From: Gammaproteobacteria bacterium
GTDB taxonomy: Bacteria; Pseudomonadota; Gammaproteobacteria; Eutrophobiales; Eutrophobiaceae
Length of the DNA: 32,017 bases
Direction of reading: 5' to 3'
Assembly (NCBI GenBank): GCA_016193395.1
Contig: JACPSH010000030.1
Location: 1-32,017 of the forward strand
Below the pieces are notes generated by a model, which saw nothing but the letters and a program-made list of their open reading frames with translations, made no database searches and had not been told where the DNA came from. Below, in pieces: positions 456 to 30,650 of this stretch; the first letter of the stretch is position 1, and each line of letters begins with the position of its first letter. Position numbers and translations under genes: made by a program.

Positions 456-1613
456 TCATGCCTCATCGCCGTAGATATCCACAATGTCCTCCGAGTGCAC
501 GGGCATGAACCACTTCTGCGCAATGAACGTCGGAATCACCGCGCTGGCGACCACGACGCCGACCAGCACAGAATACTGGACTTCGTTGATGTACCCCGCG
601 TTCAGGCCAAACACGCTGGAGATCGTGCCAAAGGTCAGGCCCGTGCTCATGAGAAGCGTGACGTACACTTCGCCCTGCGGAAGATACCGCTTCGCGAGGA
701 AATATACGCCTATGAACTTTGTCATCATCTTGAGCAGGAACAGCACCATGAACAGGCCAAGCGCGGAATAGATCAACGGCAACGAGATTTTCAGCCCGCC
801 GACGATGAAGAACAACGGCGTGATCACCGCGTAGGCGACCGTCCGGAGACGATTGCGCAGCTCCTTTGTCTGGGAGGTCTCGCCGAAGTGCTTCGACATC
901 AGCAGACCGAGTAGGAACGCGGGCAAAACGGCGTGCCCGTCTCCGAGGTTGGCGAAATAGATGAAGACCAGCAACAACAGGAATATATATTTGATTTCCG
1001 GCTCGATGACTTTGTTCTTCAGGCCGGGATGCTCGATCACATGGTGCGAGAAATTCACCGCACCGACAATGACGAGAATCGAAACCACCACGAACAGCGC
1101 CGTGTATGCCGTCGGCTTCAGAAACACGATGCTGAGTGCGAGCGCAGTGCCCATATCCGTAATGAATGTGGCGGCCATCAATATTTTGCCGAGCTCCGTT
1201 CGGTTTAGCCGCGTTTCGACGAGCACGGCGTAGACGACCGCAAGCGAGGTCGTGGACAGGGCGATACCCGCTATCAGCGCGGCGTTCCAGTCCCAACCCG
1301 CGACAAACCGTGCAAACAGAAAAACGCCCACGCAAGGCAGAAGGAATGAAAAGAAGCCGATCAGGAAACTTTCCTTGAACTTCTCCTTCATCAGCGCCGT
1401 ATCAATCTCGGTCCCCGCAAGATAAGTGAGCAGGATGCCGCCAAAGGTCGCCATGTACTGCATCCATTCCTCCGTGCGCAGTCCCAGGCTCCCGGCGATC
1501 GCGCCGAGCGTGATTTCGATGATGGCGACCGAAAGGCCAAACCGCAGCGACAGCAGGCTCGCCATGAAAATAATGAGGCCAACGATGACGGGGATGGGGT
1601 CTGCTAGGGGCAT
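456..1613 (-). CDS. CPA2-family cation:proton antiporter under a fluoride riboswitch
   Basis: This 385-residue integral membrane protein consists almost wholly of hydrophobic segments, about 11-13 helices, and has the Na+/H+ exchanger (Kef/NapA-like) fold. The helix that carries the ion-binding pair in this superfamily reads ATFITDMGTALA, with Thr-Asp near residues 152-153 (Asp-Asp in NapA, Gln-Asp in KefC). There is no C-terminal RCK/TrkA-N domain, so it is not a full Kef channel. A GTG at 1619 extends the frame by two codons. I chose the ATG at 1613 because AAGGAG lies five bases before it and would abut the GTG. The leader carries a fluoride riboswitch. Antiporters are a known class of fluoride-riboswitch targets, so a role in fluoride or proton homeostasis is likely. 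The actual ions are not determined. Confidence 0.85.
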   Translation of the reverse strand: MPLADPIPVIVGLIIFMASLLSLRFGLSVAIIEITLGAIAGSLGLRTEEWMQYMATFGGILLTYLAGTEIDTALMKEKFKESFLIGFFSFLLPCVGVFLFARFVAGWDWNAALIAGIALSTTSLAVVYAVLVETRLNRTELGKILMAATFITDMGTALALSIVFLKPTAYTALFVVVSILVIVGAVNFSHHVIEHPGLKNKVIEPEIKYIFLLLLVFIYFANLGDGHAVLPAFLLGLLMSKHFGETSQTKELRNRLRTVAYAVITPLFFIVGGLKISLPLIYSALGLFMVLFLLKMMTKFIGVYFLAKRYLPQGEVYVTLLMSTGLTFGTISSVFGLNAGYINEVQYSVLVGVVVASAVIPTFIAQKWFMPVHSEDIVDIYGDEA

Positions 1614-1675
1614 ATTCACTCCTTCGTCGTGATATGACGGTGCCGGTTAAACGGATTTTTCCCCGATTACGGGGA

Positions 1676-4725: not shown

Positions 4726-7023
4726 TCAGTCTGCCGGCGGAGGTTCGGCGAGGATCTCGCGATTACCGTTCGCTTCCAGCGGTCCGACGAGTCCGCTCTT
4801 CTCCATCTCCTCGACCATGCGCGCGGCGCGGTTATAGCCGATCTTGAGCCGCCGCTGGATGTAGGAGATCGACGCCCTGCGCGTCTCCGTGACGATGCGC
4901 ACCGCCTCGTCGTAAAGCGGATCCGCGTCTTCCGGGACCGTTTCAATCCCGGGAATCGGCTCGGCGCCGCCTTCGGACGGGCCGCGCAGGATTTCCGTCA
5001 GGTAATCCGGCTCGCCGCGCGACTTGATGTTCTGGACGACCTTGTGCACCTCGTCATCATCGACAAAGGCGCCATGCACGCGCACCGGGATGCTCGTGCC
5101 GCCCGGCAGGAACAGCATGTCGCCGTGGCCAAGCAGGCTCTCCGCCCCCATCTGGTCGAGGATGGTGCGCGAATCCACCTTCGCGGAGACCTGGAACGCG
5201 ATCCGGCACGGTATGTTGGCCTTGATGAGGCCGGTGATGACGTCCACGGAAGGCCGTTGCGTCGCCAGGATCAGATGGATCCCGGATGCCCGCGCCTTTT
5301 GCGCGAGCCGCGCGATCAGCTCTTCCACCTTCTTGCCGACCGTCATCATCATGTCAGCGAACTCGTCCACGACCACGACGACGAACGGCAGGGCTTCGAG
5401 CTGCGGCGCCTGCTCGCCGGGCAGGACCGCCTCGAAGGTCGGATCGGGCAGCGGCGAACCGCGGATTTCGGCCTCCTTGATCTTGCGGTTGTAGCCGCTG
5501 ATGTTGCGCACGCCGAGCGCGGCCATGAGCCGGTAGCGGCGCTCCATTTCCGCCACGCACCAGCGCAGGGCATTGCCCGCTTCGCGCATGTCCGTCACCA
5601 CGGGCGTCAGAAGGTGTGGGATGCCCTCGTAGACGGACAGTTCCAGCATCTTCGGATCGATCATGATCAGGCGCACGTCCCGCGCCGTCGCCTTGTAGAG
5701 GATACTGAGGATCATCGCATTCAGGGCCACCGACTTGCCGGAGCCCGTGGTCCCTGCCACCAGCAGGTGCGGCATGCGGTTGAGTTCAGTCACTACCGGC
5801 CGGCCACCGATGTCCTTGCCGAGCGCCAGCACCAGTGGCGATTGCGTCGATTCGTATTCCACCGATTTCAGGATTTCTCCGAGCGTCACCAGCTCGCGGT
5901 GTTCGTTGGGGATCTCGAGTCCGACGACCGACTTCCCGGGGATCACGTCCACGACGCGCACGCTGATCACCGACAGCGATCGCGCGATGTCCTTGGCCAG
6001 ATTGCTGATCTGGCTGCCCTTGACGCCGGGCGCCGGCTGCAGCTCGAAACGCGTGATCACCGGTCCGGGGTGGACTTCCACGACTTGTACGTCGACGCCG
6101 AAATCGCGCAGCTTGATTTCCACCTGCCGCGACATGGCCTCGAGGGCCTCGGTGGAGTAGCGTCCCTTCGGTGGCGGCGGCTCATCAAGCAGATCGAGCG
6201 GAGGCAGGACGGAATCGGCGGGCGGGGCAAACAGGTGTTCCTGTTTTTCCTTCAGCACCCGCACCCCGGGCCTGGGCTCGCCGATCACCGGCTCGATGCG
6301 CGGCGGCAGCCGATGCTCGACCTTCTCCTGCTCTCGCGCCACGTGCACTTCGCGTTCGCGTTTCGCATGGCGGCCTTCGCGCGCCTCCCGCATGCGGCCG
6401 ATCCACTCGTTGAGTTGCGCGCCCAGTTCCAGCGTCAAGTAACCGGTCTTGTCCATCAGCCAGAGCCACGACAAACCCGAGTACAGCGTCACGCCGATCA
6501 GGAACATGGCCAGCATGACCAGCGTGCCGCCCAGTTCACCGAACAGGAGCAGCAGCAGCGAGCCGGTGCCGTCGCCGAAAATGCCGCCCGCCCCACTCAC
6601 GCCATGCGGCAGGTGTGGGCCGGCCTGAAAATACATCCAGGCCAGTCCGCAACCGCCGGCAAACGCCAGGATGAATCCCAGCACGCGCAAACCGAACTGG
6701 AAGTGGTTGAACGGCTCCTGCCGGCTGCGGGACTGAAACAGCCGCCAGCCATCGAAGAGGAGGATGAAGGGCATCAGGTTACCCAGGTAACCGAGAAGGT
6801 AGAGCAGCAGGTTCGCGATCCACGCGCCGGCGACTCCGCCGCTGTTGCGCACGAGTTCCGATGCCCCGGCCTGTGACCAGCCCGGATCGTCCGCATGAAA
6901 CGTCAACAGGGACATTTCCAGGAAGATCGCGGCCGCGACCAGGGCAATGAAGCTGATTTCCTTGATGTTGCGGACCCAGGGTCCGGAGCGGAGGGATTCG
7001 CGTTTCTTCGAGGCCTGCGCCAC
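4726..7023 (-). CDS. ftsK: DNA translocase FtsK
   Basis: FtsK is the septal DNA pump that clears chromosome ends and activates XerCD at dif. The 765-residue length is the compact form, with a short linker. The N-terminal 200 residues hold four hydrophobic segments, followed by a charged linker to about residue 290. The motor domain has Walker A GTTGSGKS near 424-431 and Walker [11 protein letters not shown] near 555, followed by [34 protein letters not shown]. The C-terminal winged-helix gamma domain (about 695-760) ends with [31 protein letters not shown] and recognises KOPS. The start is a GTG at 7023, preceded by AAAGGG at a good distance. An extended -10 promoter lies at 7077-7082. Confidence 0.96.
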
Positions 7024-7082: not shown

Positions 7083-7145
7083 CCATTTTCTGCGGGTTTC
7101 CGGGAGCCGCGCCAGGCCGCGAGGCCCCCACCGCGGACTGGGTGC

Positions 7146-7364
7146 TAACAGGGTGATGCAAAACCCCGTTTTGCATCACCCCGTGGCGTCCCAGGGCAGA
7201 TTTCCTGCTCCTGCGAAATCTGCACTTCCGCCATCCCTGGCGGTCGGACCGGACGCATCGCATATCAAACACGCGAGTGTTTGAGATGCGGAGCGAGGCC
7301 GAAGCGGTGCTTTGGCCGAGCGAGATGCAAAAGTCCATGGATGGACTTTTGCATCAACCTGTTA
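7146..7364. repeat. Hairpin-array element, copy 1
   Basis: A non-coding element of about 219 bp bounded by 18-bp inverted repeats with one mismatch: TAACAGGGTGATGCAAAA at 7146-7163 and its complement at 7347-7364. Inside are consecutive hairpins. 7151-7181 has a 14-bp stem and loop CCC. 7196-7223 has a 9-bp stem and loop CTGCTCCTGC. 7228-7243 is CCGCC-ATCCCT-GGCGG. 7259-7290 has a 14-bp stem with one mismatch. 7297-7317 has a 9-bp stem with one wobble pair. 7324-7355 has a perfect 15-bp stem and a two-base loop. The 20-base core TTCCGCCATCCCTGGCGGTC (7226-7245) is identical in copy 2 at 13231-13250. It has no coding capacity and occupies most of the ftsK/hydrolase divergent spacer. Confidence 0.8.
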
Positions 7365-7394
7365 ACGTAGCATGAGTGGGCCGCCCCGCCCACA

Positions 7395-13158: not shown

Positions 13159-13365
13159 AGGGAAGCTCTGAACAAGTCCATCCGGGACTTGTCAGAGCAC
13201 GGCGGAAAATTGCTCCTGCATTTTCCGCGTTTCCGCCATCCCTGGCGGTCAGAAAACGAAAAGTGTGATTTTCGTTTTCCTTCATTTTCCAATCGCTTAG
13301 GCGATTGGAAAATGGCCATACCTCCCTGTATGGCGGGAACCTCTGAACTGGTTCAGAGGTTCCCT
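13159..13365. repeat. Hairpin-array element, copy 2
   Basis: About 207 bp bounded by 15-bp inverted repeats with one mismatch: AGGGAAGCTCTGAAC at 13159-13173 and its complement at 13351-13365. Hairpins in order: 13165-13198 with one bulge; 13202-13228 with a 9-bp stem and loop TGCTCCTGC; 13233-13248 CCGCC-ATCCCT-GGCGG; 13252-13279 with an 11-bp stem; 13283-13314 with a 14-bp stem and loop TTAG; 13315-13334 with a 7-bp stem and loop CTCCCT; 13335-13364 with a 14-bp stem and a two-base loop. The core and the GCTCCTGC loop match copy 1, whereas the other arms differ in sequence but stay paired. It splits lpxK from trm112-kdsB, and its right end carries the lpxK stop codon. Confidence 0.8.
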
Positions 13366-14336
13366 AGCAACACGCCGAGCCGGTGCTGAAACGCCGCCGG
13401 CATGACCGCTTCGATCGGCAGGTACCAAAAACGGTCGGTGGCGAAGCGCCGACATTTTACTGCATCCTTCTCCGTCATCACTATCGGTAGCTCATCGCCG
13501 AAGCGGAAATCCGCGGCGCTGAAGGGGTGATGATCGGGGAAACGGTGCTTGACGATGTTCAAACCCTGGCTGCGCAGGTAGGAGAAAAACCGGTTCGGGT
13601 TGCCGACCCCGGCCACGGCATGGACTTCGCGGCCGCGCAGGCTTTCCACGTTGATGCGACGGTTCTCATCCGCCACGGACCGCAGCGGCTGAGGGGAATA
13701 CTCCATGAGGAATTCGGACCTGCTCGCCTTGGCGTTCGCCACCACCATGTCGACGCTGCGCAATCTCGATGCCGGCTCACGCAACGGCCCGGCGGGCAGG
13801 CAACGGCCGTTGCCGAAGCGCCGGTCGCCGTCGATTACGGCGATCTCGATATCGCGGCCCAGCGCATAATGCTGAAGGCCGTCATCGCAAAGAATTATGT
13901 TGCAGCCGGTGCGCTGCACCAGTTCGCGGGCGGCAATGAATCGCCGCGGCGACACGGCCACCGGGCAGCCAGTGCGTTGCGCCATCAATACCGGTTCATC
14001 CCCTACCGCCTCCGGGCTGCTGTCCGGCCGCGCCTGTTGCGGCATCTTCGACGGCCTGCCCCCGTAACCCCGGCTTACGATCCCCGGACTGAAGCCTTTC
14101 TCCTTCAGGAATTGCGCAAGCCAGATCACGAGCGGCGTTTTCCCCGTGCCGCCGACGGTGATATTGCCGACGACGATGACCGGAACGAGGAGTTCGCCGA
14201 CCGGGATCAGCCCGGCGATGTAGGCCATCCGGCGCAGCCACATGGCGGCCGCATACAGCCAGGACAGCGGCGCCAGCGCCACGGACAGGCGGTGGTTTTC
14301 GTACCAGAGTTTATCCAGGAGCGGGTCCGGAGACAT
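13353..14336 (-). CDS. lpxK: Tetraacyldisaccharide 4'-kinase LpxK
   Basis: LpxK phosphorylates the 4' position of the lipid A disaccharide at the inner membrane. The product is 327 residues. A hydrophobic N-terminal helix (about 18-50) is followed by the P-loop [13 protein letters not shown] (Lys66), then [29 protein letters not shown], the [20 protein letters not shown] block and the C-terminal [13 protein letters not shown]. The last residues LLGNL and the TGA lie in the right inverted repeat of the hairpin-array element, so the native C terminus may have been altered by a few residues. It sits 35 bp after exbD in a comEC-exbB-exbD-lpxK run. Confidence 0.95.
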
Positions 14337-24386: not shown

Positions 24387-27300
24387 TCACGCCATCACTG
24401 CATGTCTCGATATTGTTTCAGTGATGTTGCCGGTAGAAGATATCGAGTGCCACGTCAATTCACTGGACCAAGGCAGGTCAAACATGGAACTCCAATCCAG
24501 TCCGCTAGCCTCCGCAGACAAATAAGCGGGCGACTCCGATCTTGCTACAAACCAACCCATCGCCTGCACGAGCGACTGAACCTGCGATTCCAACAGAACC
24601 GAGCCATCGGCAAATTCGAAACGCTCGATACGCTGAGGCTGGGTTGCAAACCACTTTCTGATTGAGACAGAACACAGGCTCTCGGACGCGCGTATTATCA
24701 GGTCAGCACCGCGTCTCGCGAAGGAAAGATCATCCAGCGTCAAATCGCCCTCAAACCGCAAAACGTCACTCCCTGACCAATCGACGATCCTGTCCCTGCC
24801 ATCGTCGCCTCCGAAAATGTACAAGTCATCCCCGGCTCCGCCATTCATCGTGTCGCGGTCCGCTCCGCCGAAAAGGACATCATTGCCCGTTCCTCCAGCC
24901 AGTTGATCATGTCCGGGGCCGCCATGAAGGATGTCATTCCCTCCACCACCCTGCATTGAATCCCTGCCAGCACCTCCATCGAACTGATCATTCCCCTCCC
25001 CTCCAAACAACGTGTCATTACCGTCTTCGCCAATAAGAAAGTCATTACCTGCATCTCCGGACAATCGATCCCGCCCCGTGCCGCCGTAAATGCTGTCGTC
25101 ACCAAGTCCACCCCAGACATGATCGCGTCCGGCGCCAACACTAATCACATCGTTTGCTGCTGTCCCAGACACGCGATCCCTGCCCTCCGTACCCACGATA
25201 TTCGGTTCTGATGTGCCTGTACCTGAATTGCTTACCGTAATCGCAAACGTGTGCGTAGCTGTTGCACCAGCCCGATCCGTGGCGATCAGTTCGATCTCAT
25301 ATGAATTCAGGGCATCTGCGGGTACGACTCCGGTAAACCTCCCCACGTCGCCATCGAAATGAAGCCATTCCGGCAGTGGCGCCCCTGCGGAGACCCTGGC
25401 CGACACTTTCACCTCGTCGCCGATATCAGGATCCACAAATACGTCTGGCGGCAATTGCAGTGAAAATTCGCCGCCCCTCTCGACCGGAATGTCTGAAAGG
25501 GCTACCTGAGTGACAGGGGCGTCATTTGTATTGGCAACAGTCAATGAGAACGTGTCAACGGCGACTTCACCCAGCCTGTTTGTCGCGGTCACTTCTATAT
25601 TCAATTGCCCCACATCCTCGTTCTGTGGCGCCCCGGACAATAAGAGGCTGTCAGTATCAAAGGTGAGCCACTCCGGCAGTGGATTTGAGCCCGCAATACT
25701 TACGGCAATCTGAAGTTCATCCGACCCGAATGGAGTCTCGAAGCCATTTCGAGATATGGTGAGATTGATTGGCGCGTCTTCTGCAACCTCCTGGTCCGCA
25801 ATCGGCGTCAGCACGATCGGCGCCGTCTCGATGATTTCTAGTTGTTGTCCATCATTCATCAATCCGGGGATCCGCAGCATCTCCGATTGCGTTGTCAACC
25901 CGATAGCTGCCGCGTGCCCCAACAGTCCGAATTCATAGGCAATCTGGCCGCCAATTGCAACGGTATCTGACGCAAGCAACAACGACTCTGCCGCAGAACC
26001 GGAAATCGACCAGTGTTCCCCCGATTCCACGTTGTCGTCGAAGCTGACAAACTCGTCAATCAGCCAATCAAGGTCGAAAAGGTGAATCCGGCTGTTTACG
26101 AGCACACCAGTTGAACCCGGGTCGTAATCCCCCGATCCTTGAGTAATTACCTGAAGCGTGAGGATTCTGTCGTCTCGTGGGATATTCAGCGCAAACCAGT
26201 CCGACAAAACAATCTCATCCGCCGCCCCAACTTCGATGACGAGATTCATGTCATCTCGTCGCAGGTGGATGTCATCGACCCCCACGCCCCCCACAGAGAC
26301 AGTGAGACGAAACGAGCTGCCCTCGCCGTCTCCCTCCATATCGAATGGCGTCTCGCCCGTGAATTCAACGTAATCCACGCCGTCGCCTTTGTTGAACAAA
26401 ATCATGCCTGTTGCGTCAACGGTATTGACCACGATGTGATCCTGTCCCTGTTGTCCAATGTATAACGTACTCCCGGCGACACTGCTCTGCAGATGATCCT
26501 GTCCCTCTCCTCCGTCAAGGATGGAGAAAGTCGGGACAAAAGACCCATTGAGGATCAGGACATCGTTACCTTCGCCGCCGAACAGAAGATTCTCACTGGC
26601 GGCGCTCAACAATCGATCGTCTCCCTCATCTCCGAACAGCAGACTGCTTGCGCCAAATCCAAAGAGCTCGTCATTCCCTCCGAATCCGTGAATGACATCG
26701 CTATCGGACCCGCCGGTAAGATAATCATGGCTGTCCGTGCTCTTGTTAACCAGCGCATCCACCTCATCCGACGTAATTAGAATGCCGCCCGAAAATATGA
26801 ATTGTTCAATTCGCGTCCCCTCTTCCTCGAACCATCCTGGAATGATGATGTTCGCCCCGCCGACAATCTCTGCCTGGACCACATCGATGGTCAAATCACT
26901 ACCCGGAAAACCGAAGTATGACGGGCGGCCGAAGCGAAGATCCTCAGCCGCGATCCCTGACCCGAACACAACGGCATCGACATCGTCGCCCTCTTCGTCG
27001 GTTTCAACGAACAGGTGCGTTCCCGTGTAGCCAAGGTCGAATACATATGCGTCACTCCCTTCGCCACCGGATTCCAGTTGGCCGTACAGCAGCGCAGGAC
27101 CGCCGTCCAGAAGATCGTCTCCATCCCCACCGTCCAACTCATCCGTTCCTTCCTCGCCGATCAGTGCGTCGTCCCCCGGGCCGCCCAGCAGGATGTCATT
27201 TCCATCTCCACCCATGAGCGTGTCATTGCCGGCATCGCCGACGAGAAAATCATCGCCGGCGTTTCCATCGAAGATGTCGGAGCCGGCGCTGCCGAAATAC

Positions 27301-30300
27301 TCGTCGGCCGCACTCGTTCCTCCTCCGGAAAGCACGGCCTTGATGTCATCCGCATCCCACGTCAAGCCGTGCCAGAACACTATTCGGTCGATGGTCCGAT
27401 CTTCGTAGGCAAACCAGTTCTGGATGGTGACGGAATCCTGGGAATCGGCCAGCGAGATCCGCAGATCCGACCCGGCCCTTTCGAGTTCGAGTTCCCAGGT
27501 GCCGATACCTCCCTCAATCGCAATGACGTCCAAGCCATCCCCGGCTTGGGGATCGACGTCAAGAAACACGTCATTACCCCGATTTCTCCCGAAGAGGATT
27601 ACGTCATCGCCCGCTCCGCCGTGCAGAATGTCATTTCCCTCTCCCCCATCAAGGATATCGTCACCCTGCCCACCCCAAAGAACATCGTCATCCTTGTCAC
27701 CAAACAGTCGATCGTCCCCGTCATCGCCGAAAAGTCGATCCTCTCCATATCCGCCCTGCAGCGAATCGGCCCCCCCGCCGCCCTCCAGGCTGTCGTCCCC
27801 CGCATCGCCAGCCATTCGATCGTTACCATTCCCCCCTAGAAGAATATCGTCACCTCCCGTAGTGGCTTCCCGGTTTCCGTCGTCTCCGATCAGATCATCG
27901 TCGCCGTCGCCCCCTTCGAGATAATCGTCGCCAATTCCGCCTTGCAACAAGTCACGTTCGGAGCCGCCGAAAAGCACATCATCCCCGTAGTCTCCGAACA
28001 ACTTATCGCGCCCATTCCCTCCGAAGAGATAGTCGTTGCTTCCACCGTCCTCGTCCGGTGGTCGATTCAGATATCTATCCGGGATGTCCACCAGGCCAGG
28101 GCCGCCGTAATCATCATCTCCACTCCAAACGAGGTTTTTATATGGGTAACCGATTTCGTCGCCGCTGAGAATGTCGTGACCATCGCCTCCCACCAGCCGA
28201 TCGCTGCCCGCTCCCCCATTTAAGACATCGGCCCCGGCCTCCCCCTGCAACAGATCGTTTCCAGGGCGTCCCTGAAGGTAGTCATCGTCATCGCCGCCGA
28301 ACAACTGGTCGGCGCTGCGGCTACCCACCAGGACATCGTCGCCGGCGCCGCCGAATAAAAAATCGCCGGGCCCCATCGAGTCCGGAAGTAACTCCACACT
28401 GGAGATGTAGTCTGGCCCGGTCGCCCCGTCGACCACATCGTGACCCTCGTACACGTTAATCTGATCGCCGCCTGCAAGCCCGGCAACAATATCTGCGCCC
28501 GTGGTTCCGGAAATTGGCGGAAACTCAACCGTGAACTCTCCATATCGATCCGGATGCTCCGTTCCGATAATCACGCCTGGAACGGTGAGGTCCGGCGATC
28601 CCGCTTCCTCAATCAGTGATATCCGGAAGTCGCCGTTGCGAAAAGTTCCACCCTGCTCCCAGAAATCGAATATCCGGATACTGGCTGCCTGGCCCTCGGT
28701 ATTGGTGATAATCAAGGCGGAATCGCCCTCCCGGATCAGATCGATGTCCTTTGCCTCATTTCGATAGACACCCTCCGATACCTTGATGTACTCACCTGTG
28801 ATTTCCATGCCAAGAAGCGTGATCGCACTGACCATCCTGTCGCTGTCAACGATTTCATCACTATCGCCCACATAGTACCTGTCGTCCCCCGCGCCTCCGC
28901 GCAGCCGGTCCGCATCCCCGTCGTCCCCCAGAGTGTCAAGATGGTCGTTTCCAAAAAGGGAATCATCGCCGTAGCCACCGTCCAGAAAGTCCATGCCGGA
29001 ATGACCAACCAGAATGTCGCTGCCGAATCCGGCAAACAGCACATCATCCTCGACATCGCCCTCGAGAAGATCGATATCGGCTGCATTATTGCTGCCAAAA
29101 ACGACTTGTGCTCCGTCAAAATCACCGCGTGCAAGATGCAAGTCCGATGGCTCATCAACGTAGATGACGGAAGCACCCTCGATGTCCAGAAATGCACTGT
29201 CCAACTGCCCCGCCTCAATCTTCAGAACCAGGAAATCTGCTCGGTTCTGCCAGTATTCCCCGCTGAATTTCGCATAATCCAGATCCCCGCCGACATTGTG
29301 TTGGTCGTAAATTCCATCATCGCCCATCACGGCAAACGAGTTCAGGTGCTGCAATGCATAGCGTATGGCCGTGGACCCGCTCGCAAGGTCGACCAGATCC
29401 GCTGCCGAATAGCCAGCGAGATTCATGAATGTCAACTGCCGACCCTCCACCGCGGCCAGAATTTCAAGTACATGATCGTGTATTTCGCTGCGTCTCCCGA
29501 AATCTCCGTGACTGATGACTCCTGCTTCCACAACCGGCAGCGATGGATCCTGCCCAAGGAACAACATCGACAAAGAATCAATCAGCTCCTCCTCCGTGGA
29601 TCCACTCTGGATAGCGGCCGCTTCGTAGAAATTGGCGATATCGCTGATGGTCGAGTCAGGACTCAATGTCTGCAGCAAACTGAGGACCGAGAGCGCGTCC
29701 ATCAATTGATCCATGCTGTGACTGTTGTTCTCAGTGGGGATAAGCGTAGTGACTCCAACCGGGGTGCCGGTAAAGAGGGAAGAGACGACACTGATATCGT
29801 CCCCCGGGGCAGAGCCTTCACTTTCGATGCGGAAGATGCGATCGGACAGATCCGCAAATGATGTCGCCGGAGGATATTCGAGGTAATTTGCAAACAGACC
29901 GATGAACGCATCCGTGAGGGCGGCGGATGACAGCGGATCGAACCCCGGGGAGTTGAAAATGACGGCCTCGTCGAAAAGTTCCGGGAACAGTCTGATCGCC
30001 AGCGCGCTCAGGTGACCGCCCAGAGAATGCCCGGTGACGGTCAGTTGGTCCCCTGAAGAAATGACGCCGAGGCCGATCCCGTCATATGTCGGCTCGAACC
30101 AGAAATACTCGTCCGTTCCGAAGGGTGAGAGCTCGGTCGCGGGATGGTGAATCATGATGAACGGTTCAGTAGTCGGAGCCTCTACCCCGCTTGCAGTTGT
30201 TTCGGTATGCAGGGTCAACTGCAATACCTGGTTGTCGGATGTGTCCGCCTTCAAGCATTGGACATAGTTGAACATGCTCACGCACTGCTTGATCGCGAGG

Positions 30301-30650
30301 CCGACCAGGCCGATGTCCTGGATGTCGGCGCCAAACAAATCCAGTAACGTCTGATCCCCAATGTCCGGCGGCAACAGTTCCGAATCGAATTCGGTACCAC
30401 GAATTGCGAGGACCTTTTCGCCGTTCAATTCAAATACGTTTCCCGCAAATCCGACATCATCGTTGGGGTGGTAGTCACTAATCGCCCAGGAGTTCTGAGC
30501 GAAAATGACATCTCCAAGTACGCTGGGTACGCGACTTCTGGAAGCTGCCTCATTTCGAATTTCTGCGGGCGAATTCGTATTTGCCGCAGACCATGACACA
30601 TAACTTAGATTTGCAAACCATGAGTATTTATAAATATCCGATATGTCCAT
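24387..30650 (-). CDS. Giant RTX-repeat protein with N-terminal lipase domain
   Basis: The product has 2087 residues and no N-terminal signal, as expected for type I secretion. Residues 1-330 form a lipase class 3-like alpha/beta hydrolase with nucleophile elbow GHSLGG (Ser209), Asp284 or Asp285 and His311 (NNSHSMD) as the likely triad. Roughly fifty calcium-binding nonapeptides of the GGxGxDxLxG type fall in blocks near 530-600, 715-1030, 1110-1200, 1305-1410 and 1820-1950. They alternate with RTX-associated domains of the HCBP type (for example DLRISLADSQDSVTIQNWF near 1063). Two Ig/cadherin-like He_PIG domains lie at about 1610-1810 (PLPEWLTFD, PLPEWLHFD). Cys123, Cys132 and Cys1993 are unusual for RTX exoproteins. 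GGAGAA overlaps the upstream stop, coupling it to the membrane-protein gene. No type I transporter is present. Confidence 0.9.
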   Translation of the reverse strand: MDISDIYKYSWFANLSYVSWSAANTNSPAEIRNEAASRSRVPSVLGDVIFAQNSWAISDYHPNDDVGFAGNVFELNGEKVLAIRGTEFDSELLPPDIGDQTLLDLFGADIQDIGLVGLAIKQCVSMFNYVQCLKADTSDNQVLQLTLHTETTASGVEAPTTEPFIMIHHPATELSPFGTDEYFWFEPTYDGIGLGVISSGDQLTVTGHSLGGHLSALAIRLFPELFDEAVIFNSPGFDPLSSAALTDAFIGLFANYLEYPPATSFADLSDRIFRIESEGSAPGDDISVVSSLFTGTPVGVTTLIPTENNSHSMDQLMDALSVLSLLQTLSPDSTISDIANFYEAAAIQSGSTEEELIDSLSMLFLGQDPSLPVVEAGVISHGDFGRRSEIHDHVLEILAAVEGRQLTFMNLAGYSAADLVDLASGSTAIRYALQHLNSFAVMGDDGIYDQHNVGGDLDYAKFSGEYWQNRADFLVLKIEAGQLDSAFLDIEGASVIYVDEPSDLHLARGDFDGAQVVFGSNNAADIDLLEGDVEDDVLFAGFGSDILVGHSGMDFLDGGYGDDSLFGNDHLDTLGDDGDADRLRGGAGDDRYYVGDSDEIVDSDRMVSAITLLGMEITGEYIKVSEGVYRNEAKDIDLIREGDSALIITNTEGQAASIRIFDFWEQGGTFRNGDFRISLIEEAGSPDLTVPGVIIGTEHPDRYGEFTVEFPPISGTTGADIVAGLAGGDQINVYEGHDVVDGATGPDYISSVELLPDSMGPGDFLFGGAGDDVLVGSRSADQLFGGDDDDYLQGRPGNDLLQGEAGADVLNGGAGSDRLVGGDGHDILSGDEIGYPYKNLVWSGDDDYGGPGLVDIPDRYLNRPPDEDGGSNDYLFGGNGRDKLFGDYGDDVLFGGSERDLLQGGIGDDYLEGGDGDDDLIGDDGNREATTGGDDILLGGNGNDRMAGDAGDDSLEGGGGADSLQGGYGEDRLFGDDGDDRLFGDKDDDVLWGGQGDDILDGGEGNDILHGGAGDDVILFGRNRGNDVFLDVDPQAGDGLDVIAIEGGIGTWELELERAGSDLRISLADSQDSVTIQNWFAYEDRTIDRIVFWHGLTWDADDIKAVLSGGGTSAADEYFGSAGSDIFDGNAGDDFLVGDAGNDTLMGGDGNDILLGGPGDDALIGEEGTDELDGGDGDDLLDGGPALLYGQLESGGEGSDAYVFDLGYTGTHLFVETDEEGDDVDAVVFGSGIAAEDLRFGRPSYFGFPGSDLTIDVVQAEIVGGANIIIPGWFEEEGTRIEQFIFSGGILITSDEVDALVNKSTDSHDYLTGGSDSDVIHGFGGNDELFGFGASSLLFGDEGDDRLLSAASENLLFGGEGNDVLILNGSFVPTFSILDGGEGQDHLQSSVAGSTLYIGQQGQDHIVVNTVDATGMILFNKGDGVDYVEFTGETPFDMEGDGEGSSFRLTVSVGGVGVDDIHLRRDDMNLVIEVGAADEIVLSDWFALNIPRDDRILTLQVITQGSGDYDPGSTGVLVNSRIHLFDLDWLIDEFVSFDDNVESGEHWSISGSAAESLLLASDTVAIGGQIAYEFGLLGHAAAIGLTTQSEMLRIPGLMNDGQQLEIIETAPIVLTPIADQEVAEDAPINLTISRNGFETPFGSDELQIAVSIAGSNPLPEWLTFDTDSLLLSGAPQNEDVGQLNIEVTATNRLGEVAVDTFSLTVANTNDAPVTQVALSDIPVERGGEFSLQLPPDVFVDPDIGDEVKVSARVSAGAPLPEWLHFDGDVGRFTGVVPADALNSYEIELIATDRAGATATHTFAITVSNSGTGTSEPNIVGTEGRDRVSGTAANDVISVGAGRDHVWGGLGDDSIYGGTGRDRLSGDAGNDFLIGEDGNDTLFGGEGNDQFDGGAGRDSMQGGGGNDILHGGPGHDQLAGGTGNDVLFGGADRDTMNGGAGDDLYIFGGDDGRDRIVDWSGSDVLRFEGDLTLDDLSFARRGADLIIRASESLCSVSIRKWFATQPQRIERFEFADGSVLLESQVQSLVQAMGWFVARSESPAYLSAEASGLDWSSMFDLPWSSELTWHSISSTGNITETISRHAVMA

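Follow-up and report, generated by a model that had tools for sequence, protein, structure and literature searches.

A probable IS5-type miniature transposon of unusual, all-hairpin and modular build in a gammaproteobacterial genome

The window, that is the whole stretch of 32,017 nucleotides analysed here (contig JACPSH010000030.1 of a Gammaproteobacteria bacterium), carries an array of closely spaced hairpins between two divergent genes, ftsK at 4726-7023 on the minus strand and, on the plus strand from 7395 onwards, an alpha/beta-hydrolase-like gene, both named from their translations; in having such a site it is one of 13 copies of the element described below. The original prediction had placed six hairpins in a row, without coding capacity, at 7146-7364. 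Both points held, as the hairpins are borne out by folding and the interval contains just short, overlapping mechanical open reading frames; the transposable unit, however, is better set at 7149-7361 (213 bp, CAGG...CCTG), the longer interval taking in part of the flanks. The features are as follows.

7145-7148, no strand: left flanking tetranucleotide CTAA (YTAR), candidate target duplication
7149-7361, plus strand: probable hairpin-array MITE, 213 bp, ends CAGGGTGATGCAAAA ... TTTTGCATCAACCTG, one of 59 end-paired copies in its own genome
7149-7184, plus strand: hairpin 1, left terminal palindrome with a short loop
7197-7224, plus strand: hairpin 2, stem GCAGATTTC, loop with TGCTCCTGC, stem GAAATCTGC; first half of the nested module
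7225-7247, plus strand: hairpin 3, ACTTCCGCCATCCCTGGCGGTCG; second half of the nested module
7254-7295, plus strand: hairpin 4, GCATATCAAACAC/GTGTTTGAGATGC, with changes on both sides in 6 of 14 pairs
7298-7318, plus strand: hairpin 5, GGCCGAAGC/GCTTTGGCC
7324-7355, plus strand: hairpin 6, right terminal palindrome, GATGCAAAAGTCCAT/ATGGACTTTTGCATC
7362-7365, no strand: right flanking tetranucleotide TTAA
13161-13363, minus strand: second, related hairpin array, ends GGAACCTCTGAAC / GTTCAGAGCTTCC, flanks CTAG and CTGG (read on the minus strand)

RNA folding of 7146-7364 gave -123.4 kcal/mol (z -9.45) and DNA folding a z of -10.0, values reached by no dinucleotide shuffle in either case. The proposed inverted-repeat ends are present (the 18 nt at 7146-7163 and at 7347-7364 are 94% complementary) and, since each terminal repeat lies within a palindrome, the ends are hairpins as well. 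The word said to recur four times in the outermost arms does so as the 9-mer GATGCAAAA, whereas the 10-mer TGATGCAAAA is found just three times, GA preceding at 7324; the window contains TTTTGCATC four times, always within the element, against 0.25 expected occurrences. The 219-bp stretch found no match in plasmid and phage collections, and in an Rfam scan the element was without a match at gathering thresholds. The sole Rfam match in the window is a fluoride riboswitch (RF01734, 45.4 bits) at 1669-1737 on the minus strand, just upstream of an antiporter-like open reading frame (456-1619, minus strand) and opposite in strand to a CrcB-like one (1764-2222). A further open reading frame of 2087 amino acids (24387-30650, minus strand) contains many glycine/aspartate-rich repeats of the GGxGxD type and is RTX-like.

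Searching the own genome (2.7 Mb, 60 contigs) with the stretch 7146-7364 yielded 94 matching pieces, and the pattern GATGCAAAA-N(0-20)-TTTTGCATC was present at 46 places (reversed control 0). Copies were located by search and their neighbourhoods then taken as stretches; 59 elements with both ends were obtained, dispersed over many contigs. They comprise full elements of about 213 bp, elements of about 264 bp with the internal module doubled, elements of about 162 bp without the module, a subfamily B of about 151 bp, and, as the smallest classes, palindromes standing alone (44 or 35 bp). The terminal inverted repeats read CAGG-N-TGATGCAAAA in subfamily A, whose ends (GATGCAAAA) the window copy carries, and CAGG-N-TGTTGAAAAA in subfamily B; A ends differ from B ends at 2 positions of the 15-mer, and full elements of both subfamilies are alignable end to end. 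A relative known from a separate assembly (G003) has many full copies, and most other matching relatives match the internal module alone. The genome-wide search for further copies, suggested as a check on the original prediction, was thus successful in the own genome as well as in a relative. That the palindromes cluster by chance, or through faulty assembly, can be regarded as a practically negligible explanation: two contig ends do fall inside copies (L017, L018), and nothing further speaks for it, against which stand the fold z of about -10, the 59 copies on many contigs, those in the separately assembled relative, and covariation. By the same fold, copy number and covariation, the earlier view that these are not random palindromes is well founded.

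Evidence for mobility comes from the insertion sites. Identical tetranucleotides flank the CAGG ends in 25 of the 59 elements, compared with a mean of 7.7 when flank partners were shuffled (25 was reached in 0 of 10,000 shuffles), and the consensus of these tetranucleotides is YTAR, the conserved target motif of IS5 (PMC10359306). Matching flanks are seen in 19 of 35 longer elements versus 6 of 24 elements below 80 bp; the solo palindromes of 35 or 44 bp seldom possess them and so may be remnants rather than transposed units. In the window copy, the flanks CTAA and TTAA agree at just three of four positions. In G003, an element lies exactly at the stop codon of lon, and the lon end in G019, which belongs to the same genus, is without it; as about 30 bp beside the site cannot be aligned, the G019 allele is to be called element-free and not a base-exact empty site. 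Marks of an IS5-family MITE are hence found together here, namely a 4-bp YTAR duplication, IS5-like terminal inverted repeats and insertion polymorphism between G003 and G019, along with 59 dispersed end-paired copies and the absence of a transposase gene, for which 213 bp is too short. We consider the window element very probably to be a non-autonomous miniature transposon (MITE) of the IS5 type.

IS5-type partner elements are present in other genomes. The exact motif YTAR+CAGGCTGTTGAAAAA was found in 36 of 369 Gammaproteobacteria genomes (reversed control 0), at loci that, besides ordinary MITEs and hairpin arrays found in another family (L284-L286), include two elements of IS size. One of these two (L265, 1298 bp, both flanks TTAA, ends CAGGCTGTTGAAAA..CTTTTTCAACAGCCTG) has an intact open reading frame for a 363-aa transposase with the Pfam domains DUF772 and DDE_Tnp_1, scoring 267.6 bits for NCBIfam IS5_4 (cut-off 140 bits); in the other (L290, 1320 bp, both flanks TTAA) the transposase gene is broken. 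The ends of subfamily B, CAGGCTGTTGAAAA, equal those of both. No IS with the ends of subfamily A (GATGCAAAA) was found, and the tie of A to IS5 goes via B, to whose full elements those of A can be aligned over their whole length. PF05598 (DUF772), PF01609 (DDE_Tnp_1) and the L265 protein gave no match in the own genome (G000), though an IS may have been lost from an assembly in as many as 60 contigs; an autonomous partner in the same genome is usual for an IS5-family MITE, but not required. We propose that an IS5-type transposase, for which this assembly yielded no match, would act in trans, cutting at the CAGG ends and inserting at YTAR. Two other groups of candidates were set aside: the ends of IS1182-like elements (L115, L118, in relatives) are similar but not identical, IS5_4 matching better, and the same ends were not seen in ISAzs10-like copies (Azospirillum) or in ISAtc5 (Acidithiobacillus).

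With IS5_4 (L265, and the Thiolapillus brandeum plasmid copy L301) the element shares CAGG-type repeats with GTTGAAAA, as well as YTAR-type 4-bp flanks (TTAA on both sides in L265 and L290), but it lacks a transposase gene, has about one sixth of the length, is built of hairpins and carries the A ends TGATGCAAAA. Ordinary MITEs of other Gammaproteobacteria (L262, L268, L271, L278, 139 bp) have the same terminal repeats, YTAR flanks and a similar size, whereas their interiors contain neither an array of separate hairpins nor the nested module. In the sections of PMC5896051 drawn on here, QMITE1 and QMITE2 of Coxiella are likewise gammaproteobacterial MITEs with very stable predicted transcripts and with full-size and small versions; those sections give direct repeats of 7-9 bp for QMITE2 and do not report an IS5-type YTAR duplication.

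Ends of the GGAACCTCTGAAC kind, which delimit the second array of the window, also bound elements of the IS5 type in relatives, namely L114 and L113, the latter flanked by TTAG left and right, and the second array includes a diverged copy of the nested module. The last residues and the stop of an lpxK-like open reading frame (13353-14336, minus strand; CTA GGG AAC CTC TGA) apparently stem from the end of the array. Arrays of a third type, composed of the nested module and CATTTTCC-like hairpins, with GGAACCTCTGAAC ends and in part truncated, can be found elsewhere in the own genome (L032, L041, L045, L048).

A different mode of movement has to be weighed at this point, as REP/BIME elements (PMC3733652) are palindromic, extragenic, present in many copies and mostly located downstream of genes, all of which applies to our element too. 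The solo palindromes and palindrome pairs look like REPs and BIMEs, and the own genome has one Y1 transposase gene, so that a RAYT (Y1 HUH family) acting on single-stranded hairpins might be thought of. This seems very improbable to us: the 4-bp target duplications with the IS5 consensus are unexpected for HUH transposition, the terminal repeats match those of DDE-type IS, and the stretch surrounding the Y1 gene (L031, L079) is without array hairpins.

The location of the elements relative to genes is likewise informative for the IS5-type MITE. None of them lies inside a called gene, and the stop codon of a flanking gene falls within the duplicated target in 25 of 59 elements versus 18 of 107 (17%) control YTAR sites. 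Of 57 neighbouring gene 3' ends, 27 lie at most 10 bp from the element, compared with 4 of 57 gene 5' ends; these statistics, like the absence of elements from called genes, rest on a simple home-made gene caller based on codon usage. As YTAR includes TAA or TAG, an insertion at the stop codon keeps the stop in place; such insertions being tolerated, a pile-up at gene 3' ends is explicable without active targeting, and the bias can, as we infer, come from the loss of harmful insertions.

The hairpins are kept by compensatory change. In a set of nine full elements of subfamilies A and B, 97.3% of the cells are paired and changes on both sides occur in 22 of 71 pairs; double-change cells number 72 compared with 27.4 (sd 4.0) after shuffling (0 of 500), a signal destroyed by sliding the partners, although the A/B split makes much of it, so that independent events are fewer than 72. 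Within A-type copies alone, double changes are present in 13 pairs. Hairpin 3 is nearly invariant and therefore uninformative on the conservation of pairing. Mismatches of the G-U kind outnumber A-C ones by 18 to 9, a lean only, too weak to prove constraint at the RNA level. The hairpins may be held by structural selection, through upstream mRNA 3' ends, transcription stops or recognition by the transposase or as single strands; alternatively, imperfect palindromes may be corrected by template switching.

These data bear on the question whether the element is foremost a structured regulatory RNA, stabilising mRNA 3' ends or stopping transcription, RNA function being the main reason for its retention and transposition just spreading it. 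In favour of such a role are the strong fold, the slight G-U excess, compensatory changes found in almost all hairpins, and the closeness (10 bp or less) of roughly half of the neighbouring gene 3' ends. Template-switch correction, however, could also yield compensatory change, and loss of harmful insertions the 3'-end bias; in addition, no gene neighbour is conserved, Rfam offers no match, and no consensus terminator-like or promoter-like site was found in the window copy. We regard this explanation as unlikely, if clearly less so than a RAYT origin. Of the two natures originally offered, mobile element or structured RNA, the first is backed by copies, terminal inverted repeats, YTAR duplications, the element-free allele and IS5 ends elsewhere, and the second, lacking an Rfam counterpart, may hold as an added property, the hairpins being conserved by compensatory change.

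Hairpins 2 and 3 form a separate repeat of about 50 bp, which is absent, single or doubled among other copies of the element and in relatives is also found alone, with different stems. It was probably acquired from outside the element and can be lost or duplicated, which makes the array modular. A scan of species genomes revealed the module in at least 114 stretches of Gammaproteobacteria; Vreelandella, Marinobacter, Shewanella, Endozoicomonas, Microbulbifer, Bowmanella, Sedimenticola and others carry it among the matches listed. Among these, 82 module occurrences show 40 different right arms, to which the left arm is complementary in many occurrences, not all. The search pattern fixed the loop and the second hairpin, so their constancy among the matches listed is by construction; they are likewise constant in module copies of relatives found by similarity. 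Again among the matches listed, the module is enclosed by a stem of 5 bp or longer in 26 of 72 cases, against 8.1 by chance (200 shuffles, highest 14). Three A-type copies of the element (L015, L016, L018) have a diverged module placed in the loop of hairpin 6, the terminal one. In other genomes (L082, L088, L092, L215), many more short palindromes with changing stems and cores such as ACATGGATGT or GCAGGATGC are seen beside the module. Tentatively, and as a possibility we would not yet favour, mobile hairpins might exist in two tiers: an IS5-type MITE carrying, and sharing with many unrelated palindromic repeats, a hairpin pair of about 50 bp (variable paired stem, TGCTCCTGC loop, CCGCCATCC[AC]TGGCGG hairpin) that would spread across Gammaproteobacteria into the loops of other hairpins via some enzyme or template switching. 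Pneumococcal BOX/RUP/SPRITE clusters (reviewed in PMC10969869) are comparable in that they consist of small hairpin elements inserting into each other; they belong to another host group and are likened by description, not by sequence.

The copies very probably make up a family of IS5-type MITEs, unusual in being modular and built of hairpins throughout, and the nested module is the part most remote from anything known; a motif-based literature search found neither the element nor the module described. It presents a transposon consisting almost wholly of hairpins, held by paired changes, whose four-base target includes the stops TAA and TAG, which allows copies to build up at the 3' ends of genes while doing little harm. 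Two testable questions follow. One is whether the structure of such elements is under selection or is re-created by errors in copying, the other by what means the widespread module with its variable stems is mobilised.
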